Source: a virus
Strand: one strand, 5' to 3'
Length of the DNA stretch: 20,278 nt
Virus record (IMG/VR): IMGVR_UViG_3300036939_000027
Location: 1-20,278 of that record
Shown here: positions 12,655 through 20,278 of the stretch, one piece after another
How positions within the stretch are numbered: the first letter of the stretch is position 1
Layout of the letters: each line of letters starts with the position of its first letter
Notes under the pieces: model-generated
Database searches by the model: none
Told to the model about the DNA's origin: nothing
What the model saw: the letters and a program-made list of their open reading frames with translations, nothing else
Made by a program: the position numbers and the translations under genes

Positions 12655-13904
12655 GCCGCCTCCTGCTTGTCCTCGACGGTGACCAGGCCGCCGGCCACGA
12701 GCACGCCGCGGGCCAGCTCGGCCACCCGGACGGCGGCGATCTGGTTCAGCCATGCCGGCCACGGGTCCAGGTCGGCGTCGGCGTGCCACATGGCCCGGAT
12801 CTCGTCGCCGGTCCGCGCGGCGGCGATGCGTGCCACCCGCGGGTCGTTGCTCTCGGGCAGCTCGTCCACGGCGTCGAGGGTGGGGACGGCGCCGCCGGGG
12901 ACGTGGCGCACCAGCAGGTTCTTCGGCTTGGCGTACGAGCGCCAGGCGCGCGCCTCCGTGATGAGCTTCGCCACCGTGCGCCACGCCTTGGCGATCTTGA
13001 CCCAGGAGACCTCACAGGTCCCGTCGCCCGGGAGCCGGACGACGAGGGCCCAGGCCTGGTCCACCTCGAAGGGCCGGGGCTGCCAGCGGTTCACGGGGTC
13101 GTAGGGCGTGCAGTGGACGTACGTGGCGAGCTGCTTCGCCAGCTTGTCCGGGTAGGCCGTGGCCGACGTGCCGGTCTTCAGGTCAAGGATGTAGTTGCGG
13201 CCCTGGTAGTGCACGATCCGGTCCCAGGTGCCGCCGACCTTCAGGTCCGGGTTGGCCCCGAAGCGTTCGATCTCGACGATCTCGAAGTCGCCGGTCTCGA
13301 TCGCGTAGGCGTGCAGATCCTCGACGGCCTGCTTGCGCGCAACGTCGAGGTCCACCTCCCGGCATGGCCGCATGGCGGCGGCGTACTGCTGGAAGGCCCA
13401 GTCGATCCCGGCCACGATCTGCTCCGGCGACCGCTGGCGCCCGGCCCGGTCGAAGGCCTCCGTCACGTGGTGCATGAGGGTGCCCCAGAGCGAAGCCTCC
13501 TCGACGCCGGCCGCGACCTTGAGCTGATCGACGGTGTTCCAGAGCAGCTTGCGCAGGGGCTCGACGCCGGCCTTCTTCTCCTCCTCCGTCGGCTCGTGTG
13601 CCTTGATCACGTAGTAGTCCTCTTCAGCCTCGGGGGCGTCGAGGCGGTCGAAGCAGACGGCGGCGTTGAGCACGAGATCCGGACGGCGGATGGCCCCCAG
13701 GAGGACGTGCGCCTCCTTCCACTTCGTGATGCCCTCGCCGTCCTCCAGGTCGTCGACAAAGGACGTCACGCGGGAGTACCAGACGAGCTTGTCCTCGCCC
13801 GGCGGGATGACGCCGGGGCGCTGCTGGTCGCCGTACCCGCGGGGGACCTTGTACGGGTCGACCTCGGCCGGCAGCAGACCCGGGACGCTGGGGGCGCCGG
13901 TCAT
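12651..13904 (-). CDS. Cas4/RecB-like PD-(D/E)XK nuclease
   Basis: This 417-residue protein carries the RecB-family nuclease motifs in the right order: His145/His146 in 'GTLMHHVTEAF', Asp228 in 'GGTWDRIVHY', the core 'YILDLKTG' with Asp241 and Lys243, and 'KQLATYVH' near 257-264. These proteins are commonly called Cas4-family exonucleases in actinophage annotation, but no CRISPR component is present here. It probably works with the SSB-like and RuvC-like proteins in phage recombination or replication end processing. The ATG overlaps the WhiB-like stop by ATGA. The N-terminal 140 residues and C-terminal 120 residues are outside the nuclease core and are not recognised. Confidence 0.88.
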   Translation of the reverse strand: MTGAPSVPGLLPAEVDPYKVPRGYGDQQRPGVIPPGEDKLVWYSRVTSFVDDLEDGEGITKWKEAHVLLGAIRRPDLVLNAAVCFDRLDAPEAEEDYYVIKAHEPTEEEKKAGVEPLRKLLWNTVDQLKVAAGVEEASLWGTLMHHVTEAFDRAGRQRSPEQIVAGIDWAFQQYAAAMRPCREVDLDVARKQAVEDLHAYAIETGDFEIVEIERFGANPDLKVGGTWDRIVHYQGRNYILDLKTGTSATAYPDKLAKQLATYVHCTPYDPVNRWQPRPFEVDQAWALVVRLPGDGTCEVSWVKIAKAWRTVAKLITEARAWRSYAKPKNLLVRHVPGGAVPTLDAVDELPESNDPRVARIAAARTGDEIRAMWHADADLDPWPAWLNQIAAVRVAELARGVLVAGGLVTVEDKQEAA

Positions 13905-14230
13905 GCCGCCATCACCTGCTGCTGCTGCCGGCGCTCGCGCAGGATCTCGCGGCGCTCATTCGGGGTCGTGCCCCCGCGCACGCCGAAGGTGTTCGGCCCC
14001 TCGACGGCGAGGGCGTCCTCCAGGCACTCGAAGCGCACGGGGCACCCGGAGACCTGGCAGAACTCCTTGGCCGTGCTGTAGCCGACCTGCACGTTCGCGC
14101 GGCCAGGGGGCGCGTCCTCGCCGGCCGGGTAGAAGGTCTCCGGGTCGACGTACTGGCACGCGGCCCGCTCGCGCCACTCGGGGTCGAGGTCCATGCGGTG
14201 CTCGGGAACGTGCTTCTTGAAGCCCATCAC
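13901..14230 (-). CDS. WhiB-family iron-sulfur regulator, divergent
   Basis: This 109-residue protein resembles the actinobacterial WhiB family, small regulators that bind a 4Fe-4S cluster and act on sigma-factor-bound RNA polymerase. Four cysteines are present: Cys25 in 'RAACQYVDPETFYP', Cys58 and Cys63 in 'EFCQVSGCPVRFEC', and Cys69. The turn motif 'FGVRGGTTPNERR' near 82-94 corresponds to G[VI]WGG but has Arg in place of Trp. The middle cysteines are separated by four residues rather than the usual two. Start is either GTG at 14230 (GTGA overlap) or ATG at 14227. Phage WhiB proteins are known to mimic and inhibit host WhiB (mycobacteriophage TM4). Confidence 0.9.
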   Translation of the reverse strand: MMGFKKHVPEHRMDLDPEWRERAACQYVDPETFYPAGEDAPPGRANVQVGYSTAKEFCQVSGCPVRFECLEDALAVEGPNTFGVRGGTTPNERREILRERRQQQQVMAA

Positions 14231-14658
14231 AGGTGCGCTTCGATCAGGGCGGCCAGGTCGAAGAAGTTGTAGGCGTCGGAGTCGTTCAGCTCCGACAGGT
14301 GCTGGCCCTTGAGGACGGGGTCCCCCTCGGCCAGGCCGTACCAGGCGACGACGGCCGGCGGCATGGTGGAGAAGTGGGGCCGCTCGCCCGGGACGACGAA
14401 GGCGCCGTCGGTGCTCCAGTGGCCCTGGCCGGTCGTGATCCGGAAGGCCTCACAGCCCAGCGCGAGGATGCAGAACTTGGCCCCGTCGCGCATCTGGCCG
14501 AAGGCCTGGCGGTGCTTGCCGGAGCGGGCCAGGCCCAGCCAGGCGGCCTTGGCCTCCGGGTTCGCCATCGGGTGTGCGTTCTCCAAGAAGTCCGGGGGCG
14601 GCTCCTGCTCGGACGGCGGGGCCGACACGGTGTCCAGCTCGTGCAGGGTGGCTGACAT
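14227..14658 (-). CDS. Phage protein of the 'CLG...LNDS...IE' small-protein type
   Basis: This 143-residue protein resembles a widespread but uncharacterised phage family with a 'w..aLrSGkyrQ..g.lr....fC.lg..ce' start and a 'L..lND....F..iA..Ie..L' end. Here these are 'WLGLARSGKHRQAFGQMRDG', 'KFCILALGCEAFRI' and 'HLSELNDSDAYNFFDLAALI'. The central part holds the expected 'PPAVVAWYGL' segment. Function is unknown. The ATG has a GAGAGGACACC leader shared with other genes in the window. It is the first gene of the overlapping block that continues to the second HNH gene. Confidence 0.8.
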   Translation of the reverse strand: MSATLHELDTVSAPPSEQEPPPDFLENAHPMANPEAKAAWLGLARSGKHRQAFGQMRDGAKFCILALGCEAFRITTGQGHWSTDGAFVVPGERPHFSTMPPAVVAWYGLAEGDPVLKGQHLSELNDSDAYNFFDLAALIEAHL

Positions 14659-14710
14659 CGGGGTGTCCTCTCGGGTGGGTCGGGGGGTGTCAGGTCGTGC
14701 GAAACGTGAT

Positions 14711-14757
14711 CCAGGCCGCGCCCGCGAGCGCAGGGGCTCTAGCGGGTCGCGGCCTGG
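14711..14757 (-). terminator. Large hairpin after the excisionase-like gene
   Basis: CCAGGCCGCG (14711-14720) plus CCCGC (14721-14725) pair with GCGGG (14742-14746) and CGCGGCCTGG (14748-14757), giving a 15-bp stem with a one-base bulge. The loop has a further GAGC/GCTC pairing. It lies in the 151-base gap between the HTH gene and the next gene on the minus strand, the only sizeable gap in the early block. It may act as a terminator or attenuator that limits expression of the replication genes until antitermination or strong promoter firing. Confidence 0.6.
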
Positions 14758-14809
14758 CGACTGGGGGTGGTGCGCGTTCCTTCGCTGCGCAGGCCGCGGG
14801 CGTTACAGG

Positions 14810-15016
14810 TCATGCCGGCACGGCCAGCTCGTCGTCGACCCCGAGGGGGACGACCTTGTTCGCGTCGATGAAGCGCTCCACCTCGTCCGGCTTGAAGAGG
14901 AGCGGCGAGCGCACCCCTCCGGGCTGGTAGGCGGTTAGGGCTCCGACGGCGATGTACCGGCGCACGGTGCGCTCCGACTTGCGGAGGCGGGCTCGGACTT
15001 CGTCGAGCGTGAGCAT
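14810..15016 (-). CDS. Excisionase-like small helix-turn-helix protein
   Basis: This 68-residue protein is a single MerR/excisionase-type HTH: 'MLTLDEVRARLRKSERTVRR' at the start gives the two recognition helices, 'YIAVGALTAYQPGG' the wing, and 'LLFKPDEVERFIDA' the closing helix. It is transcribed divergently from the repressor and is the first gene of the leftward early operon, the position of Cro- or Xis-type proteins. The ATG at 15016 has AGGAGGGG 12-13 bases upstream; a TTG two codons earlier (15022) would have better spacing. It could be an excisionase or a transcriptional antagonist of the repressor; sequence alone does not separate these. Confidence 0.82.
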   Translation of the reverse strand: MLTLDEVRARLRKSERTVRRYIAVGALTAYQPGGVRSPLLFKPDEVERFIDANKVVPLGVDDELAVPA

Positions 15017-15051
15017 GTCCAAGGGGGTGCCCCTCCTTCCGAGTGGCTCTG

Positions 15052-15083
15052 TGTCCGACCGTGTCCGCGGATGTCCGCAGATG
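15052..15083. repeat. Helically phased 10-bp repeats upstream of the excisionase-like gene
   Basis: TGTCCG begins at 15052, 15062 and 15072, exactly ten bases apart, with a fourth weaker copy TGACCG at 15082. They lie between the leftward promoter and the HTH gene. The regular spacing places each copy on the same face of DNA, as in arrays bound by excisionase or other small HTH proteins. Binding is inferred. Confidence 0.5.
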
Positions 15084-15101
15084 ACCGGCGTTGTCAGTAG
15101 G

Positions 15102-15127
15102 GCCACTCTGGCAGGCCACTTTGGGCC
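15102..15127. promoter_or_regulatory. Two repressor operator-like sites on the leftward early promoter
   Basis: GCCACTCTGG (15102-15111) and GCCACTTTGG (15115-15124) are tandem copies of the core that recurs at 15255 and 18348. They cover the -10 and spacer of the candidate leftward promoter. Further GGCC-containing variants follow (GGCCACTAGAGG at 15134, GTGGCCC at 15154, GTGGGCC at 15174). Confidence 0.6.
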
Positions 15128-15133
15128 AGTCAA
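15105..15133 (-). promoter_or_regulatory. Candidate leftward early promoter
   Basis: On the minus strand TTGACT (15133-15128) and CAGAGT (15110-15105) are separated by 17 bases. The predicted start is near 15098, about 80 bases before the excisionase-like gene. The -35 is strong and the -10 weak. Operator-like sequences lie over the spacer and -10. Confidence 0.5.
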
Positions 15134-15233
15134 GGCCACTAGAGGATGAATTTGTGGCCCATCGTAGGCCGGAGTGGGCCATCCCCCGAACGGACGACTG
15201 CACGCTGTCGATCGCTACAGGGAGTCACCACGC

Positions 15234-15262
15234 TTGCCCTACGTGGCCGAATGGGCCACTCT
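15234..15262 (+). promoter_or_regulatory. Possible weak promoter of the repressor gene
   Basis: TTGCCC (15234-15239) and CACTCT (15257-15262) are 17 bases apart and point to the repressor GTG at 15302. Both boxes are far from consensus. The operator-like site at 15255-15269 overlaps the -10, which would fit autoregulation. Confidence 0.3.
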
Positions 15263-15274
15263 GGGCCACATTGG
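15255..15274. promoter_or_regulatory. Repressor operator-like site before the repressor gene
   Basis: GCCACTCTGGGCCAC (15255-15269) is an exact reverse complement of the sequence at 18348-18362, and an overlapping second core GCCACATTGG follows at 15265-15274, ten bases on. It lies 30-45 bases before the repressor start. Confidence 0.65.
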
Positions 15275-15301
15275 AGCCACGGGGACCTAGGAGGGGCACA
15301 A

Positions 15302-15736
15302 GTGGAAGATCACGAGAGGCTGGCGCGAGCGCAGGAGGCGGTGCGCAAGGCCGTGAAGCACCGCCAGGTCGAGCTAGGCCTGACGCGCGACCAGATCGCA
15401 GATGACGGCGGCGTGCCGCTGCGCACGGTCGGCCGGTTCCTGTCCGAGGGTGTCTGGCCCCGGCCGCCGGCCCTGCGGGGCATCGCTCGCGGGCTCGGGT
15501 GGCCGCCCGACGAGCTGGAGGTGCGGCTGAAGCGGGAGCTGAACGCGCTCCAGCTCTCGGACCTGACGAGCAGCGTGCAGAACGTGATCGTCGTCGACTT
15601 CGGCCCGGACGGGCTCGACGGCCTGGCGCCGGAAGAGGTGCGCGAGCTTCAGGCCGGCATCCAGGCCGCGGGCCTGCGGCTGAAGAACGAGATCAAGGCA
15701 CGCACGCCGGTCGCCGGATTTCAGGTCGCGTCGTGA
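15302..15736 (+). CDS. Putative immunity repressor (HTH protein)
   Basis: This 144-residue protein has an N-terminal HTH domain about residues 8-75: 'VELGLTRDQIADDGGVPLRT' forms the two core helices, with 'VGRFLSEGVWPRPPALRGIA' continuing into the next helices. The C-terminal half (about 76-144) has a hydrophobic strand 'VQNVIVVDFGPDGL' and a helical segment, likely for dimerisation. No Ser-Lys autoprotease motif of LexA/CI type is seen, so induction would not be by self-cleavage. GTG start with AGGAGGGG 6 bases upstream. It is divergent from the early operon and flanked by repeated operator-like sites, the classical place for a lysogeny repressor. Confidence 0.75.
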   Translation: MEDHERLARAQEAVRKAVKHRQVELGLTRDQIADDGGVPLRTVGRFLSEGVWPRPPALRGIARGLGWPPDELEVRLKRELNALQLSDLTSSVQNVIVVDFGPDGLDGLAPEEVRELQAGIQAAGLRLKNEIKARTPVAGFQVAS

Positions 15737-16389
15737 ACCGAGTCCGTAGCGCCTGGGAGAACCGGCCGGTCTGGCTGGAGTGGCCGGAGTTCCGCGGGCT
15801 CCGGCGCATGCGCCCGGCCGCCGTGATGACGAACAGCGCCGCCGTCCTGGGCACGGTCGCCGTGCTGGTGACGGGCTTCTTCCTGGTGCTCGGGCTCCAG
15901 TGGGTGCACAGCACGCCCTCGACGAGCGCCGACGACGTCATCCCCCCGGCGGCCGAAGCGGCGCCCGCCGGCAAGGCGCCGGCTCCTCGGCGGCCGGCGC
16001 CGTCTCCCACCGGCGCGCCGCGCACCCCGAAGCCATGGCCCGGCATCGGGGCGGGCGGCTACGACCAGTGGATTCAGCCGGCCGACCCGGGCGAGTACGA
16101 CGGCCCCGCGCCGGTGCAGGTCGTCCAGCGCCCCGCCGGCAACGCGCCGGCCGCGCCGGCCAGCTCGACATCGGCCCGGCCCGGGACCCGGCCGCCCTCG
16201 ACGCCTCGCCCGGCCCAGCCGGCCCCGGGGACTTCCACCGGTTCCCCTGTGCCGGCCAGCCCGACGCCGGTACCGTCGGAGACAGACGAAGTCCGCCCCC
16301 CGACGGACGACGTCGCGGAGGTCGTCTGCCGGCTCCTGCCCACGGGCGTGGAGAAGTGCAAGCCCGCCAAGGGCGAGCGCACCGACTGA
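15733..16389 (+). CDS. Single-pass membrane protein with proline-rich tail, co-transcribed with the repressor
   Basis: This 218-residue protein starts at a GTG that overlaps the repressor stop (GTGA). A charged/aromatic N-terminus (to about 33) precedes one transmembrane helix (about 36-57, 'AAVLGTVAVLVTGFFLVLGL'). About 130 residues rich in Pro, Ala, Ser and Thr follow, probably spanning the cell wall, then a small C-terminal part with two cysteines ('VVCRLLPTGVEKCKPA'). The topology suggests an extracytoplasmic tail. As it would be expressed from the prophage, a superinfection-exclusion or surface-modifying role is plausible but unproven. Confidence 0.78.
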   Translation: MNRVRSAWENRPVWLEWPEFRGLRRMRPAAVMTNSAAVLGTVAVLVTGFFLVLGLQWVHSTPSTSADDVIPPAAEAAPAGKAPAPRRPAPSPTGAPRTPKPWPGIGAGGYDQWIQPADPGEYDGPAPVQVVQRPAGNAPAAPASSTSARPGTRPPSTPRPAQPAPGTSTGSPVPASPTPVPSETDEVRPPTDDVAEVVCRLLPTGVEKCKPAKGERTD

Positions 16390-16398
16390 AGACAGCCG

Positions 16399-16433
16399 AG
16401 AGCCCCGCCGCTTCCCCCGAGCGGCGGGGCTCT
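16399..16433. terminator. Terminator between converging operons
   Basis: Perfect 14-base arms AGAGCCCCGCCGCT (16399-16412) and AGCGGCGGGGCTCT (16420-16433) with a 7-base loop follow the membrane-protein stop by 9 bases and precede the end of the leftward small-gene cluster. Its symmetrical form and place between convergent genes suggest bidirectional use. No T-run follows. Confidence 0.8.
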
Positions 16434-16446
16434 GTCGTGTGCGGGC

Positions 16447-16656
16447 TCACTCTCCCGGGGGGATCTCCCTGCCCGTGAGCGCGTCGGTGACGACTTCGTC
16501 GTAGGGGTCGCCCAGGTCGAGGTGGTTCGCGCACTGGTGGCACAGACCGGCCTCCGACTGTTGCTGCGCCAGATCGACGGCGCTTTCGCGGTCCTCGGCC
16601 TCGACGGTGATGCTCTCGCTTGCGCTGTAGATCAGGCTCACGTGGTACTGCGGCAT
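16447..16656 (-). CDS. Small phage protein, beta-rich with a Cys-x-x-Cys pair
   Basis: This 69-residue protein begins 'MPQYHVSLIYSASESITVEA', a strand-turn-strand, then 'EDRESAVDLAQQQSE' (helix), then 'GLCHQCANHLDLGDPYDEVV'. The Cys-x-x-Cys pair may bind zinc or simply be an artefact of length. The ATG at 16656 has a GAGAGGACACC leader. It is the last gene of the leftward accessory group, just before the terminator. No function recognised. Confidence 0.72.
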   Translation of the reverse strand: MPQYHVSLIYSASESITVEAEDRESAVDLAQQQSEAGLCHQCANHLDLGDPYDEVVTDALTGREIPPGE

Positions 16657-16668
16657 GGCGGTGTCCTC

Positions 16669-16818
16669 TCAGGCGTGGATCGGGTGGGCGACTGGCTTCG
16701 GCCAGCTCCCGTCGGCGCACAGGGTCGCGCCGGTCTCGGGGTGAATCCAGCTCGCGCCATAGCTGGTCGGGCGAAGGGTCAGAGCGCCTCCGCAGGTGCA
16801 GGTGACGGGCTGGGTCAT
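16669..16818 (-). CDS. 49-residue small protein
   Basis: ATG at 16818, stop at 16671-16669. The protein begins 'MTQPVTCTCGGALTLRPTSY' and ends 'GSWPKPVAHPIHA'. It has three Cys (two in 'CTCGG', one in 'TLCADGSW'), so it may bind a metal. It lies 3 bases after the previous gene's stop and its stop lies just before the ribosome binding site of the next, in the packed style of the operon. A weak GGGGATCTG precedes the start. No family recognised. Confidence 0.55.
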   Translation of the reverse strand: MTQPVTCTCGGALTLRPTSYGASWIHPETGATLCADGSWPKPVAHPIHA

Positions 16819-16821
16819 GAC

Positions 16822-17100
16822 TCAGATCCCCAGTCGGGCGAAGTCGAGGGCCAGGGCGTCGCGGAGTTCATCCTGCGCCGGGGCGCCCACGAACCACATG
16901 AGAGCGTCGGCGGTCGCGGAGAGATCTGCGCTGCGCACGTCCATCACGGCGGCCATGTAGGCCCTGCATGACGTGCTGTCCCCCTCGAAGGGGACCGAGA
17001 AGTAGATGCGCTGGCGCTGGAGCGCGACGACGACCAGGCGCAGAAGGCGGTCGCGGCAGGTGCGGCAGGCGGGCTCAGCGTGGCTCGTGCTCGGGGGCAT
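16822..17100 (-). CDS. 92-residue small protein of the accessory operon
   Basis: The ATG at 17100 has the GAGAGGACAC ribosome-binding leader and is about 23 bases past a predicted transcription start. The N-terminus has 'EPACRTCRDRLLRLVVVALQ' (Cys-x-x-Cys at the head of a helix), the middle 'IYFSVPFEGDSTSC', and the C-terminus a helical 'DELRDALALDFARLGI'. It is soluble-looking and of unknown function. It heads a three-gene group ending at the terminator near 16.4 kb. Confidence 0.72.
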   Translation of the reverse strand: MPPSTSHAEPACRTCRDRLLRLVVVALQRQRIYFSVPFEGDSTSCRAYMAAVMDVRSADLSATADALMWFVGAPAQDELRDALALDFARLGI

Positions 17101-17129
17101 GACGTGTCCTCTCGTCGGGGCGTGTCCTA

Positions 17130-17158
17130 AGTATGGCATACGGCGTCTGCCTTTACAA
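17130..17158 (-). promoter_or_regulatory. Leftward promoter P-A with dyad
   Basis: On the minus strand TTGTAA (17158-17153) and CATACT (17135-17130) are exactly 17 bases apart, with an extended TGC just upstream of the -10. The -10 overlaps an 11-base dyad GTATGGCATAC (17131-17141). Nearly the same sequence occurs at 18319-18347. It precedes the 92-residue gene. Confidence 0.6.
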
Positions 17159-17263
17159 GCCCCTCCAGGGATCGAACAGGAGGATCAGGGCGACGACCAG
17201 GAGCGCGAGCGCCAGTACCACCTCCAGGGCCGCCTCGGCCTGGCGCAGGGTCGGCCGCCTCAC
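17153..17263 (-). CDS. 36-residue single-helix membrane peptide
   Basis: GTG at 17263-17261 overlaps the previous stop (GTGA), and the stop TAA at 17155-17153 lies inside the -35 of the next promoter. The peptide is 'VRRPTLRQAEAALEVVLALA' then a hydrophobic run to 'LFDPWRGL': a basic N-terminus plus one long transmembrane helix (about 12-30). Overlap with its neighbour supports expression. Function unknown; small hydrophobic peptides may be antiholin-like or membrane regulators. Confidence 0.5.
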   Translation of the reverse strand: MRRPTLRQAEAALEVVLALALLVVALILLFDPWRGL

Positions 17264-17541
17264 TGCGACAGGTCGGGGGCTTCGGGCACGTAGATGTCCC
17301 CCTCGCTGTCGACGTCGGGGACCTCGGCCAGGGCCCGACGGGGGCGACCGGGCTTGCCGGGGCGCGCGGCGTCGTGGGCGTCGATGGTCGACTTCAGCCA
17401 GAGCACGGCCTGGCCCTCCTGGAAGTCGGGTGCCGGCGCCCGCCCCCGGTGGACGTAGGCGAACCACGTTCGGCGCTTGATCCCGCGGCGCGTGGCGATC
17501 TCGTCGGCGTTCAGGTAGTCGTCGCGGTTGAAGCCGGTCAC
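17260..17541 (-). CDS. Small helix-turn-helix protein (AlpA/excisionase-like)
   Basis: This 93-residue protein starts at GTG 17541, chosen because AGGAGG lies 6 bases upstream. The HTH is 'YLNADEIATRRGIKRRTWF' followed by 'AYVHRGRAPAPDFQEG' and 'WLKSTIDAHDA', the pattern of MerR/HTH_17 domains. A basic 'RPGKPGRPRR' tract (AT-hook-like) and an acidic tail ('VPDVDSEGDIYVPEAPDLSQ' region) follow. It could bind the dyad shared by the two leftward promoters that flank it, or act as an excisionase. Confidence 0.78.
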   Translation of the reverse strand: MTGFNRDDYLNADEIATRRGIKRRTWFAYVHRGRAPAPDFQEGQAVLWLKSTIDAHDAARPGKPGRPRRALAEVPDVDSEGDIYVPEAPDLSQ

Positions 17542-17562
17542 GGGCTCCTCCTTCGGGGGGAA

Positions 17563-17590
17563 GCCCCCGGACCACATCAGGTCCGGGGGC
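17563..17590 (-). terminator. Perfect hairpin between the 236-residue gene and the HTH gene
   Basis: GCCCCCGGACC (17563-17573) and GGTCCGGGGGC (17580-17590) make an 11-bp perfect stem with a 6-base loop (ACATCA). It begins 11 bases after the stop of the upstream gene on the minus strand and ends before the AGGAGG of the next. No U-tract. Likely an attenuator or mRNA-stabilising hairpin. Confidence 0.55.
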
Positions 17591-17601
17591 CGGCGGGTGG
17601 G

Positions 17602-18312
17602 TCAGGACGGGTCGGTGAGCAGCCTCTCCGCGGGCACCGCAGCCCGGTAGATCCGCCCCTCGCTGGACGGCGTCGTGTAGGCGACCTGCACAGTGGTGCG
17701 GCCGATCTTCACGACGAGCCCGCGACGCATCCGGCCCATGCCGTGGACGTACACGACGTCACCGACGGCCGGCGCCGGCGCTCGGACCAGCTCGGCCGCA
17801 GGGGCGCTGCCGACCAGACGGACCACCTGGGCCCGGATGGCGTCGTCGGCGGCGATCAGTTCGGCACGCTTGCGGCCCCGGGCAGCCAGCTTGGCGATGT
17901 CGGCGTCCGTCCGGTCGGCCGAAGCCCAACCTCTGCTGGTGCGGACCTGGAGCCACGTGCGGTCCGGCTTCTCCAGCGCGGTCACGTCCTCGATCTTGAC
18001 GACCTGCACACGCTGGCCAGCGTGCTCCTCATCGTGCAGGACGGTGACGGTCCGGCCGTCGCGGTCGTCGTAGGCCCAGGGCATGGGGGCGGGGGTGGTC
18101 TCGGTCACGGCGTCCTCCGGGACGGGGGTCGGGGTGAAGGTGGCGGCGACGTCGGCGGTGGCCCAGTGCTTCCGGCCGGACGGGGTGTACCAGAAGGTCG
18201 TGATCCGCTCGGGAGCGTCCACGAACCAGTACTGGCGGGCCTCGCGGACGGTGCCGCTGGCGAGGGTGACGGTGCCGTCCTGCTGGGCCTCGGGCCGCTT
18301 CGTCGTCGTCAT
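17602..18312 (-). CDS. Unknown 236-residue early protein, probably leaderless
   Basis: The ATG at 18312 lies just 6 bases after the -10 (CATACT, 18324-18319), so the transcript would start at or next to the initiation codon, with no Shine-Dalgarno site. This is common in actinobacteria. The protein has a beta-strand-rich N-terminus ('GTVTLASGTVREARQYWFVD'), a charged helical middle ('TDADIAKLAARGRKRAELIA'), and a C-terminal SH3/KOW-like stretch 'VGDVVYVHGMGRMRRGLVVK'. No family recognised. A nucleic-acid-binding role is possible from the last domain. It is the first gene of the leftward accessory operon. Confidence 0.75.
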   Translation of the reverse strand: MTTTKRPEAQQDGTVTLASGTVREARQYWFVDAPERITTFWYTPSGRKHWATADVAATFTPTPVPEDAVTETTPAPMPWAYDDRDGRTVTVLHDEEHAGQRVQVVKIEDVTALEKPDRTWLQVRTSRGWASADRTDADIAKLAARGRKRAELIAADDAIRAQVVRLVGSAPAAELVRAPAPAVGDVVYVHGMGRMRRGLVVKIGRTTVQVAYTTPSSEGRIYRAAVPAERLLTDPS

Positions 18313-18318
18313 GCCCTA

Positions 18319-18347
18319 AGTATGGCATACGCCGTCTGCCATTGCAA
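18319..18347 (-). promoter_or_regulatory. Leftward promoter P-B with dyad
   Basis: On the minus strand TTGCAA (18347-18342) and CATACT (18324-18319) are 17 bases apart, with extended TGC. The same dyad GTATGGCATAC (18320-18330) overlaps the -10 as in the 17.1 kb promoter. The -35 abuts the 15-base operator (18348-18362). Confidence 0.65.
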
Positions 18348-18362
18348 GTGGCCCAGAGTGGC
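18348..18362. promoter_or_regulatory. Operator between divergent promoters
   Basis: GTGGCCCAGAGTGGC is the exact reverse complement of 15255-15269, before the repressor gene. It exactly fills the space between the two divergent -35 boxes (18342-18347 and 18363-18368), so one bound protein would contact both promoters. Confidence 0.7.
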
Positions 18363-18391
18363 TTGACCGTGACAGCGGCACCCCGTACGCT
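18363..18391 (+). promoter_or_regulatory. Rightward promoter for the plus-strand membrane operon
   Basis: TTGACC (18363-18368) and TACGCT (18386-18391) are 17 bases apart; transcription would start near 18398, about 34 bases before the HTH gene start. Weaker operator-like cores (GCCACATCG at 18393, ACCACATTCG, GCCACACGAG) follow downstream. Confidence 0.55.
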
Positions 18392-18431
18392 CGCCACATC
18401 GACCACATTCGCCACACGAGGGAGCCGACGT

Positions 18432-18620
18432 GTGTTGACCACGAAGCAGGCCGCCGCGCGGCTCAGGGTCTCCAGCGAGACCGTTCGCCGCTGGTACCGG
18501 GCCGGGATTCTCGACGGCAACCGGATGAACCCGACCGGACGTATCAAGATCCACGAGCAATCCGTCGAGCGGCTGCTCGCCAGAGTGAAACTCCCACCGA
18601 AGGAGGGGGAAAAGCAGTGA
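18432..18620 (+). CDS. BldC/excisionase-like HTH protein, first gene of the rightward operon
   Basis: This 62-residue protein is a compact MerR-type HTH: 'LTTKQAAARLRVSSETVRRW' gives the two main helices, then 'YRAGILDGNRMNPTGRIKIH' the wing, and 'EQSVERLLARV' the closing helix. The GTG at 18432 has GAGGGAG upstream; a TTG at 18435 is an alternative. It ends in GTGA overlap with the next gene. Such BldC-like proteins head transfer or replication operons in Streptomyces integrative elements and also serve as excisionases. Which role applies is not known. Confidence 0.8.
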   Translation: MLTTKQAAARLRVSSETVRRWYRAGILDGNRMNPTGRIKIHEQSVERLLARVKLPPKEGEKQ

Positions 18621-18841
18621 TCATCACCACGGATTCCGTCGTTGCCGGCGTCACCTACGCCGCGCCGACGTGGTTCGCCCTCGTGAACGGCGGGACCCTG
18701 GCTGGCGGCACGGTATTCGTGCTCTCGGCCGGGCGCATTCTCGCCCAGAGCCGTAGACGTAAGCAGGCGGCCACCGTGACCCAGATCCACCCGACGACGC
18801 CGACACACGTTCGCGCGTCCCTGAGCAAGGAGGCTGCATGA
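18617..18841 (+). CDS. Small single-pass membrane protein
   Basis: 74 residues from GTG 18617, overlapping the HTH gene stop by GTGA and the next gene's ATG by ATGA. Residues about 11-43 are hydrophobic ('VTYAAPTWFALVNG', 'GTVFVLSAGRILA'), followed by a basic 'QSRRRKQ' cytoplasmic-type segment and a hydrophilic tail. GGAGGGG precedes the start. Unknown function; part of the packed rightward operon. Confidence 0.72.
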   Translation: MIITTDSVVAGVTYAAPTWFALVNGGTLAGGTVFVLSAGRILAQSRRRKQAATVTQIHPTTPTHVRASLSKEAA

Positions 18842-19071
18842 AGAACTTCTACGACCACGATCCAGGCGCCGACATCGTCATGGACGGCGTGCGCTGGGTC
18901 TTCGCCATTCTGGTGATCATCGCTGCCGGGATCGTCGCTTTCCGCGGCGAGCCCGTTCAGCTCGCAGCGATCCTCGCGCTGGCCGTCTTCGGCATGTGGG
19001 TGCTCGACCGGCCTGACGCCAACGATGCCCCCGACCTGCCGGCGCCGCCCGCGCACCCCGGGAAGGACTGA
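18838..19071 (+). CDS. Small two-helix membrane protein
   Basis: 77 residues from ATG 18838 (ATGA overlap; AAGGAGG upstream). A hydrophilic N-terminus ('MKNFYDHDPGADIVMDGV') precedes two hydrophobic helices, about 19-37 ('WVFAILVIIAAGIVAF') and 41-57 ('VQLAAILALAVFGMWVL'), then an Asp/Pro-rich tail. No signal peptide or family recognised. It could be a small membrane partner of a downstream transporter or transfer protein. Confidence 0.75.
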   Translation: MKNFYDHDPGADIVMDGVRWVFAILVIIAAGIVAFRGEPVQLAAILALAVFGMWVLDRPDANDAPDLPAPPAHPGKD

Positions 19072-19075
19072 CCCC

Positions 19076-19285
19076 GTGCCGATCTTCCGGTGTGAGCTGA
19101 CGAACGGCCGGCGGACCCTGAAGCGGGAGGACCGGCAGATCCACAACGTGAAGGACGGGGCAGAGGTGGCGACCCACCTGGCCGCCATGGCCGGCTCGCT
19201 GGGCCTGGGCGCCAAGGGCCACACGCTCAAGATCTTCGACACCTCCGGCCGCCGGACCCGGCTCATCCGGACCTTGACCGGATGA
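19076..19285 (+). CDS. Small basic soluble protein, family unknown
   Basis: 69 residues from GTG 19076, with GGGAAGGA upstream spanning the preceding stop. The sequence looks like a compact alpha/beta domain: 'IFRCELTNGRRTLKREDRQI', 'GAEVATHLAAMAGSLGLGAK', 'HTLKIFDTSGRRTRLIRTLTG'-type strands (partial quotes only). It is rich in Arg and Lys. It ends with an ATGA overlap into the next gene. The repeated 'strand-Arg' pattern may fit nucleic-acid or membrane-surface contact; no family recognised. Confidence 0.7.
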   Translation: MPIFRCELTNGRRTLKREDRQIHNVKDGAEVATHLAAMAGSLGLGAKGHTLKIFDTSGRRTRLIRTLTG

Positions 19286-19464
19286 GCAGCAAGACGATCA
19301 GGAAGGAGGCCGCCGCCGCCTGGGACTCGATCAGGCGGACGGCGGCCACCCTCGACCGGCTTCGACCGGGCACGGGGGACGAGCTGCTCCAGCGGGTCAC
19401 CAGGACCCTGGAGCAACTGGAGACCGACGCCCTTTCCGCGGCGGCTTCCGGACGGAAGACCTGA
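19282..19464 (+). CDS. 60-residue helical protein
   Basis: ATG at 19282 overlaps the previous stop by ATGA. The protein is almost entirely helical and charged ('KTIRKEAAAAWDSIRRTAAT', 'DELLQRVTRTLEQLETDALS'). It is likely a small coiled-coil or helical bundle partner. Its stop is followed by the GC-alternating palindromic cluster. Function unknown. Confidence 0.68.
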   Translation: MSSKTIRKEAAAAWDSIRRTAATLDRLRPGTGDELLQRVTRTLEQLETDALSAAASGRKT

Positions 19465-19546
19465 CCAGCGCAACCGCGCGTAGGCGCGCGCGATCACGCG
19501 CGCAACAGGCGCGCGTGCACGCGCGCGTGATACCTCACGGAGGAGA
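19465..19546. repeat. GC-alternating palindromic cluster
   Basis: This 82-base gap carries ATCACGCGCGC (19493-19503) and its perfect inverse GCGCGCGTGAT (19521-19531), and inside the second half an 18-base perfect palindrome GCGCGCGTGCACGCGCGC (19509-19526). Runs of alternating C and G continue from 19475 on, favouring Z-form or cruciform DNA. A GGAGG site for the next gene follows. No coding ORF fits here. It may be a recognition site, an RNA hairpin, or a terminator before the next gene. Confidence 0.7.
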
Positions 19547-20041
19547 GTGGATCAAGTGATTGCCGCAGCAACCATCGCCGTCATCGTGGCGGCCCTCATG
19601 GACTGGAAGCCGCCCCTGCCGGCGTGGATCGGGGACCGGATCGCCGCCGTCCTGGCCCTGTTCGCCGCTTCGGTCTTCGTGGCCTCGACGCCGCTGGCCG
19701 CCCTCGTGCTCGGCTGGGGCGAGCAGTTCTCCGGCTGGCTGGGCGGTCTGATCCGCGGGTGGGCGCCGGACCTGGGCGTCGCGGTGTCCGAGTACCTGAT
19801 CGGCGCCCTGGTGATCGTCGTCGCCTGGCTCTGGGTGCTGGCGATGCTCCCGACGAGCAAGCTGTCCGGCGTCCTTGGCGACGGGAGGTCCAAGGAGCTG
19901 GACTCCTGGCTCATCTGGGGCGGCGCCATCGTCCTGGCGGTCGGCGTGGCCGGCGTGCCCGGCGGGTTCGGGGACGTTCTGCGCTGGATCGTGACTCTGG
20001 GCGTCAGTGCTGGCCGCACTCTCGGGGAGCTGGCGACGTGA
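19547..20041 (+). CDS. Multi-pass membrane protein
   Basis: 164 residues from GTG 19547; a GTG three codons later (19556) is an alternative with better spacing from GGAGGAG. Hydrophobic helices can be seen at about 4-18, 31-54 ('IAAVLALFAASVFVASTPLA'), 80-101 ('YLIGALVIVVAWLWVLAMLP') and 118-134 ('WLIWGGAIVLAVGVAGVPGG'), and a weaker one at 139-155. This is a four- or five-helix integral membrane protein. No family recognised. Its stop overlaps a short dead frame, and the next gene starts 14 bases later. Confidence 0.8.
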   Translation: MDQVIAAATIAVIVAALMDWKPPLPAWIGDRIAAVLALFAASVFVASTPLAALVLGWGEQFSGWLGGLIRGWAPDLGVAVSEYLIGALVIVVAWLWVLAMLPTSKLSGVLGDGRSKELDSWLIWGGAIVLAVGVAGVPGGFGDVLRWIVTLGVSAGRTLGELAT

Positions 20042-20054
20042 GCGGGGGCGTGAC

Positions 20055-20278
20055 GTGGACCCGTTGAGCGCCGTCCTGCTGTTCCTACTGATCACCGGCG
20101 GCGTCGACTGGGCCTCCGGCGGGATGGTCCGGGCCGACGTCGGCGGGGCCCTGAAGGAGTCCGCCTCCCGGGGCTGGGGCCACTACCGGACCGAGCGCGA
20201 GAAGCAGCGCCGGGCCCGTCGGGCCCAACGGGCGAAGACCCCGTTCGGCCGGTTCCGGAACCGGGTGGGCGACGCCGT
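20055..20278 (+). CDS. Membrane-anchored protein with basic cytoplasmic domain, 3' end missing
   Basis: The frame starts at GTG 20055 and runs off the right edge (74 codons seen). It has one hydrophobic segment ('LSAVLLFLLITGGVDWASGG') and then an exceptionally basic stretch with 'YRTEREKQRRARRAQRAK' and 'TPFGRFRNRVGDA'. A short membrane anchor followed by a positively charged region fits the start of a membrane-bound DNA-handling or ATPase protein, but the rest is outside the window. GGGGGCGTGA upstream gives only a weak ribosome binding site. Confidence 0.65.
   Translation, partial: MDPLSAVLLFLLITGGVDWASGGMVRADVGGALKESASRGWGHYRTEREKQRRARRAQRAKTPFGRFRNRVGDA

Follow-up and report, generated by a model that had tools for sequence, protein, structure and literature searches.

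In the PRM/OR2/PR region of phage lambda, two back-to-back promoters with 17-bp spacers are bridged at both −35 elements by an operator, an arrangement shared by the locus described here. OR2 is a 17-bp operator read by dimers of CI or Cro, and CI acts oppositely on PRM and PR. In phage 186, Apl (like Cox of P2, a small protein of the excisionase type) represses both early promoters, and, as here, direct repeats 10–11 bp apart lie between and over these two promoters (PMC7498355). Streptomyces BldC is, like the candidate proteins here, a MerR-like winged helix of 62–68 aa; excerpts of PMC5859096 give its consensus as AATTXXXX(C), and sections of PMC11963761 describe 9-bp repeats for BldC at whiI. 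Across the BldC/Xis class, portions of all three sources report head-to-tail binding of direct repeats about one turn apart (PMC7498355, PMC5859096, PMC11963761). The repressor and stoperators of Cluster A mycobacteriophages resemble the present case in that asymmetric phage operator sites are found at early promoters, the stoperators being 13-mers that occur singly through the genome (passages of PMC9283540).

The locus lies in a window of 20,278 bases (the whole stretch of viral DNA analysed) with a GC content of 71.8%. For the terminase-like protein there are 1,761 matching phage records, mostly of actinobacterial phages and none reaching 60% identity. The stretch is best explained as a pair of divergent promoters, predicted from their hexamers, in an as yet unclassified phage of actinobacterial type. 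Its likely role is as a piece of the phage early/immunity regulon; in appearance it is a phage control region of an ordinary type whose operator layout is uncommon. The promoter pair and its surroundings comprise:

17123–17159, minus strand: duplicate of the leftward promoter module (here TTGTAA-17-CATACT), preceding a 92-aa ORF (16822–17100) and lacking the 15-mer
17602–18312, minus strand: leftward gene of 236 aa and no family, its ATG at the predicted +1, with coding-like third-position GC (0.92)
18312–18348, minus strand: 37-bp leftward promoter module (−35 to +1), identical at 33 of 37 positions to 17123–17159
18319–18324, minus strand: predicted leftward −10, CATACT, with a 17-bp spacer and the predicted +1 at 18312
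18322–18342, no strand assigned: 21-bp dyad (10-1-10, one mismatch) over the leftward spacer and −10, a candidate second operator
18342–18347, minus strand: predicted leftward −35, TTGCAA, assigned by consensus match only
18348–18362, no strand assigned: putative operator GTGGCCCAGAGTGGC, with two head-to-tail half-sites, minus-strand GGCCACT (18347–18353) and AGCCACT (18357–18363)
18363–18368, plus strand: predicted rightward −35, TTGACC, a consensus match with checked coordinates
18386–18391, plus strand: predicted rightward −10, TACGCT, with a 17-bp spacer and the predicted +1 at 18398
18391–18417, plus strand: three direct 9-bp repeats (TCGCCACAT, CGACCACAT and TCGCCACAC) over the predicted rightward start site
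18432–18620, plus strand: HTHc, which opens the rightward operon, a 62-aa HTH_17 protein with a modelled winged helix of BldC/Xis type

The back-to-back promoters and filled gap described in an earlier note hold in every coordinate when the sequence is re-checked, including the two 17-bp spacers and the 15 bases that occupy the whole interval between the −35 elements. An A is present at both predicted starts; at 18312 it is the first base of the leftward gene's ATG, which would make the mRNA of that gene leaderless. In Streptomyces coelicolor, leaderless mRNAs arise from 21% of primary starts and the mapped consensus elements are TANNNT and NTGACC (portions of PMC4895711). The rightward hexamers agree with this consensus, which may not be that of the host, and the leftward −10 is without its first T; the leftward −35 matches at four of six positions and is the weaker of the two.

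Compared to lambda, the promoter hexamers of which were matched to the lambda record, the gap is 15 bp rather than 12 bp and the predicted starts are 86 bp rather than 83 bp apart. The bridging of two back-to-back −35 elements is of the OR type. OR2 is read by a dimer, while the site here consists of two direct half-sites that do not form a dyad, and, unlike lambda, no second or third operator of the same kind resides inside the promoters. As in Apl/Cox-type systems, the early promoters carry direct repeats at one-turn spacing; however, the 186 promoters face each other with seven sites between them, whereas those here are back to back with two. By contrast to the single stoperators of Cluster A, the sites here are one-turn tandems clustered in two gaps.

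A standard promoter scan (at least 9 of 12 positions) over 17000–20278 finds no promoter and misses both members of the pair. With relaxed limits, set after the claim had been seen (TTG fixed, a spacer of 16–18, A2 and T6 of the −10, and 8 or more of 12 positions matched), a scan gives four sites in the window, where 200 shuffles average 1.03. These sites (15133, 17158 and 18347 on the minus strand and 18363 on the plus strand) all have a 17-bp spacer and all lie upstream of the gene they face. Allowing a gap of up to 30, the window has a single back-to-back pair and the 200 shuffles have none.

The 15-mer had been read as an operator for a single bound dimer, but a symmetric site of this kind is not supported: the 15-mer is formed of direct half-sites and is symmetric at only 3 of 7 positions. 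A palindromic (inverted-repeat) 15-mer is ruled out on this count, and no dyad is found in 18341–18372. In the leftward direction the 15-mer reads AAGCCACTCTGGGCCACTTG, in which (G/A)GCCACT occurs twice, 10 bp (one helical turn) apart; its edges are the limits of an exact match, not a measured footprint. The exact match is the reverse complement at 15255–15269, a copy that alone proves little because such exact repeats abound in the window (33 direct and 16 inverted 15-mer pairs, against shuffle means of 2.8 and 3.9). With up to three mismatches, the 15-mer has six matches compared to 2.14 expected, a number reached by 2 of 100 shuffles.

The half-site and its spacing are more telling. With at most one mismatch allowed, GGCCACT has 81 occurrences in the window, including 11 in 15095–15300 and 18340–18366. 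Same-strand pairs of such sites at 10 bp number four, all inside the two divergent gaps, while 100 whole-window shuffles average 0.22 and never exceed 2; the motif for this count was chosen after looking at the sequence. In a motif-free test of all 7-mers at spacings of 8–12, the top pair in the two gaps has four copies, at spacing 10, and among 500 shuffles of the gaps none gives four pairs and seven give three. Arrays of at least three units also number four in the two gaps (periods 10, 10, 10 and 9) compared to a shuffle mean of 0.094 (of 500 shuffles, 454 have none, 45 have one and one has two). The whole window holds 38 short-period arrays, against an average of about 18 in 20 shuffles, many of them with period 9 or 12 and in coding DNA, and four of the seven period-10 arrays are outside the two gaps.

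Outside the window, the operator pattern AGTGGCCNNNAGTGGCNNGAC has two matches in viral contigs, both within ORFs of unrelated contigs, and the pattern GGGCCACNNTGGGCCACNNTGG has one, a minisatellite. In an unrelated viral contig (L022, 9416–9497 and beyond), GGGCCACCCT forms a plain 10-bp tandem repeat of the minisatellite type; thus, caution is due, as not every such array is an operator.

The second divergent gap (15017–15301), which resembles an immunity region and from which HTHa is oriented leftward and Rep rightward, includes:

14810–15016, minus strand: HTHa, a 68-aa HTH_17 protein, first leftward early gene
15051–15100, plus strand: five 10-bp GTGTCCG-like units (GTGTCCGACC, GTGTCCGCGG, ATGTCCGCAG, ATGACCGGCG and TTGTCAGTAG) on the near downstream side of the predicted start of HTHa
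15101–15140, plus strand: four GGCCACT-like half-sites (15101, 15114, 15124 and 15134) covering the predicted HTHa promoter
15105–15110 and 15128–15133, minus strand: predicted HTHa promoter, −10 CAGAGT and −35 TTGACT, with a predicted start at 15098
15153–15179, minus strand: three weaker half-sites, 10 bp apart, from the array and motif scans
15254–15280, plus strand: half-sites directly ahead of rep, including the exact reverse complement of the 15-mer
15302–15736, plus strand: Rep, a 144-aa HTH_3/XRE-type protein and candidate immunity repressor

The array at 15051–15100 represents a second one-turn motif that is unlike GGCCACT.

Among the candidate binders, HTHa, HTHc and, weakly, HTHb are HTH_17-like, and HTHa and HTHc are identical at 14 of 27 positions over the first helices. 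HTHc scores above the cut-offs of HTH_17 (PF12728, 38.1 bits compared to 27) and of the excisionase-family DNA-binding domain TIGR01764 (30.3 bits compared to 28.8); however, it is not a BldC by the subfamily model NF033787 (NCBIfam), because its 27.6 bits are far under the cut-off of 77. The single-sequence model of HTHc (pLDDT 82) matches the Xis of mycobacteriophage Pukovnik (Z 8.4, rmsd 1.4 over 51 residues) and BldC (Z 8.0, rmsd 2.2 over 52 residues), with the next row at 6.6, and Foldseek ranks BldC first (E 3.1e-3). Head-to-tail binding, described for BldC (in part of PMC5859096), is predicted for HTHc by class only, and the GC-rich motif here is not the BldC consensus. HTHa has no match among solved structures. 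Rep scores barely over the HTH_3 cut-off (23.5 bits compared to 23), and its model (pLDDT 46) is too poor for a structure search.

The preferred reading, held tentatively and at somewhat below even chances, is that the 15-mer is a two-site tandem operator bound cooperatively by an HTH_17 protein of the BldC/Xis type (HTHa or HTHc), and that control of the two directions is coupled without being all-or-none. What the analysis shows is the layout of the sequence, the surplus of one-turn repeats in the two gaps and the fold modelled for HTHc; promoter activity, the binder, repression and cooperativity are inferred. A small phage DNA-binding protein, most likely HTHa or HTHc, would occupy the pair of half-sites cooperatively. 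Two protomers on 18347–18363 would span the space between the −35 elements together with the edge of each, hindering both promoters, and the bound pair would block sigma at both −35 elements, the rightward one more firmly. A BldC/Xis-type HTH_17 protein is preferred over Rep because this class binds direct repeats about one turn apart; the preference is only slight, as Rep adjoins most of the sites and HTHa is without a solved match. If confirmed, the region would join the back-to-back shared-operator layout of lambda with the one-turn repeats of the 186/P2 excisionase type in one small region, and would provide a minimal two-site case of a head-to-tail DNA-binding protein acting on two polymerases at once. 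Otherwise, it would be a normal control region of an undescribed phage.

A substantial though lesser possibility is that immunity repression falls to the XRE-type Rep, which alone would read GGCCACT, shutting the HTHa, HTHc and leftward promoters in the lysogen and controlling its own gene. Monomers or dimers of Rep would then occupy the direct half-sites. In favour of this, such sites immediately precede rep and cover the promoter of its divergent neighbour, both HTH promoters belong to the regulon as would suit a repressor, and the HTH_3 score is above its cut-off. XRE dimers mostly read dyads, and tandem 10-bp half-sites would be unusual for them; the unusable Rep model also counts against this alternative. 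A phage repressor that is monomeric and has asymmetric sites has, by contrast, been described (PMC9283540).

The two directions bear different extra elements, namely the dyad and duplicated module on the left and the AGTGGC/TTGAC junction and 9-bp repeats on the right. AGTGGC abutting TTGAC (0 or 1 base between) occurs only twice in the window, at the HTHa (15129–15140) and HTHc promoters, and none of 100 shuffles has two such junctions. The duplication of the module at 33 of 37 positions is not reproduced in 50 shuffles. Dyads with 10-base arms arise in 2.35% of shuffles of the gap that holds 18322–18342; dyads of such size number five in the whole window compared to a shuffle mean of 2.58, and so are not rare. 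The dyad of the module copy is 17 bp, GGCCACT is absent from that copy, and a scan of viral contigs with the leftward dyad pattern gives no matches.

Under the preferred HTH_17 reading, the leftward promoter would be under additional control from the 21-bp dyad that it has in common with the promoter at 17123–17159, and this dyad together with the 9-bp repeats at the rightward start site would permit each direction to be set separately. Since the leftward promoter has its own dyad, also found at 17123–17159, the directions are probably linked rather than switched as one. The all-or-none control proposed earlier is not supported: this dyad is a separate element, the module recurs away from the 15-mer, and nearly the same geometry in lambda gives opposite effects on two promoters. 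Because the lambda slot can have such effects, all-or-none control is only one of several outcomes and is not favoured. Moreover, as the starts are 86 bp apart, the two polymerases would be expected to interfere and not to fire together. What stands of the shared control element is a plausible set of divergent promoters with a common recurrent motif between their −35 elements; the symmetric single dimer and the all-or-none output do not.

The two leftward ORFs downstream of the 37-bp module copies are unrelated, one being leaderless and the other having a leader and a Shine-Dalgarno-like sequence. The 236-aa ORF is coding-like by codon position (GC of 0.70, 0.55 and 0.92), whereas its antisense ORF is not. 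Between the 236-aa gene and HTHb, a GC-rich hairpin without a T run is read by eye at 17565–17592 (minus strand CCCCCGGACC-TGATG-TGGTCCGGGGG). This hairpin is a possible terminator, and HTHb would then have its start further downstream.

An element similar to OR2, by which one protein represses one direction and activates the other through sigma at its −35 for a mutually exclusive output, appears unlikely. The gap and start spacing are close to those of lambda, and the leftward −35 is the weaker, as in an activated promoter; however, the 15-mer has no dyad, and 17123–17159, which closely resembles the leftward promoter, is without the site, so that activation from the 15-mer is no general need of that promoter. 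An extension of the HTH_17 reading, similarly improbable, would assign the two one-turn codes GGCCACT and GTGTCCG to separate BldC/Xis-type paralogues that polymerise on DNA (HTHa and HTHc), with the 15-mer as a two-site filament nucleus in a lambda-like slot and the side of growth choosing which promoter closes. Chance resemblance of GC-rich DNA to promoters and repeats, with the true starts and operators elsewhere, is very improbable: the empty standard scan, the abundance of exact 15-mer repeats, and the relaxed thresholds and motif picked after looking speak for it, but shuffles do not give the placement ahead of genes or the confinement to divergent gaps, and the module is duplicated at 33 of 37 positions.

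The evidence comes from the sequence of one phage fragment; relatives of the region were not found in the searched sets. The 236-aa protein has no relative in viral contigs, phages or genome contigs, and no match in 394 genomes of the class, a search graded uninformative by its own output. Rep has none in phages, viral contigs or plasmids, a weak match in one of two genomes reached by locus (E 4.1e-4) and, in the 394 genomes, one distant chromosomal relative at a locus without one-turn 10-bp arrays. HTHa has relatives in 2 of the 394 genomes, also at loci without 10-bp arrays. HTHc and a 164-aa protein have no match in plasmids, HTHb has none in phages, blastn of 13501–20278 against phages gives none, and no relative was found for the 417-aa exonuclease-like ORF. 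No integrase gene or att site is recognised in the 20,278-base fragment. The primase-like protein is found at nine viral and two genome loci, and a regex search of these 11 loci for an HTH_17 gene gives none.

Downstream of HTHc, 18617–20278 is a run of small rightward ORFs, several of them hydrophobic-rich by eye; those tested have no convincing Pfam, PHROGs or NCBIfam match. A near-perfect GC inverted repeat (19485–19527; arms of 19 nt, 89% complementary, with a 5-nt loop) lies between two of the rightward ORFs.
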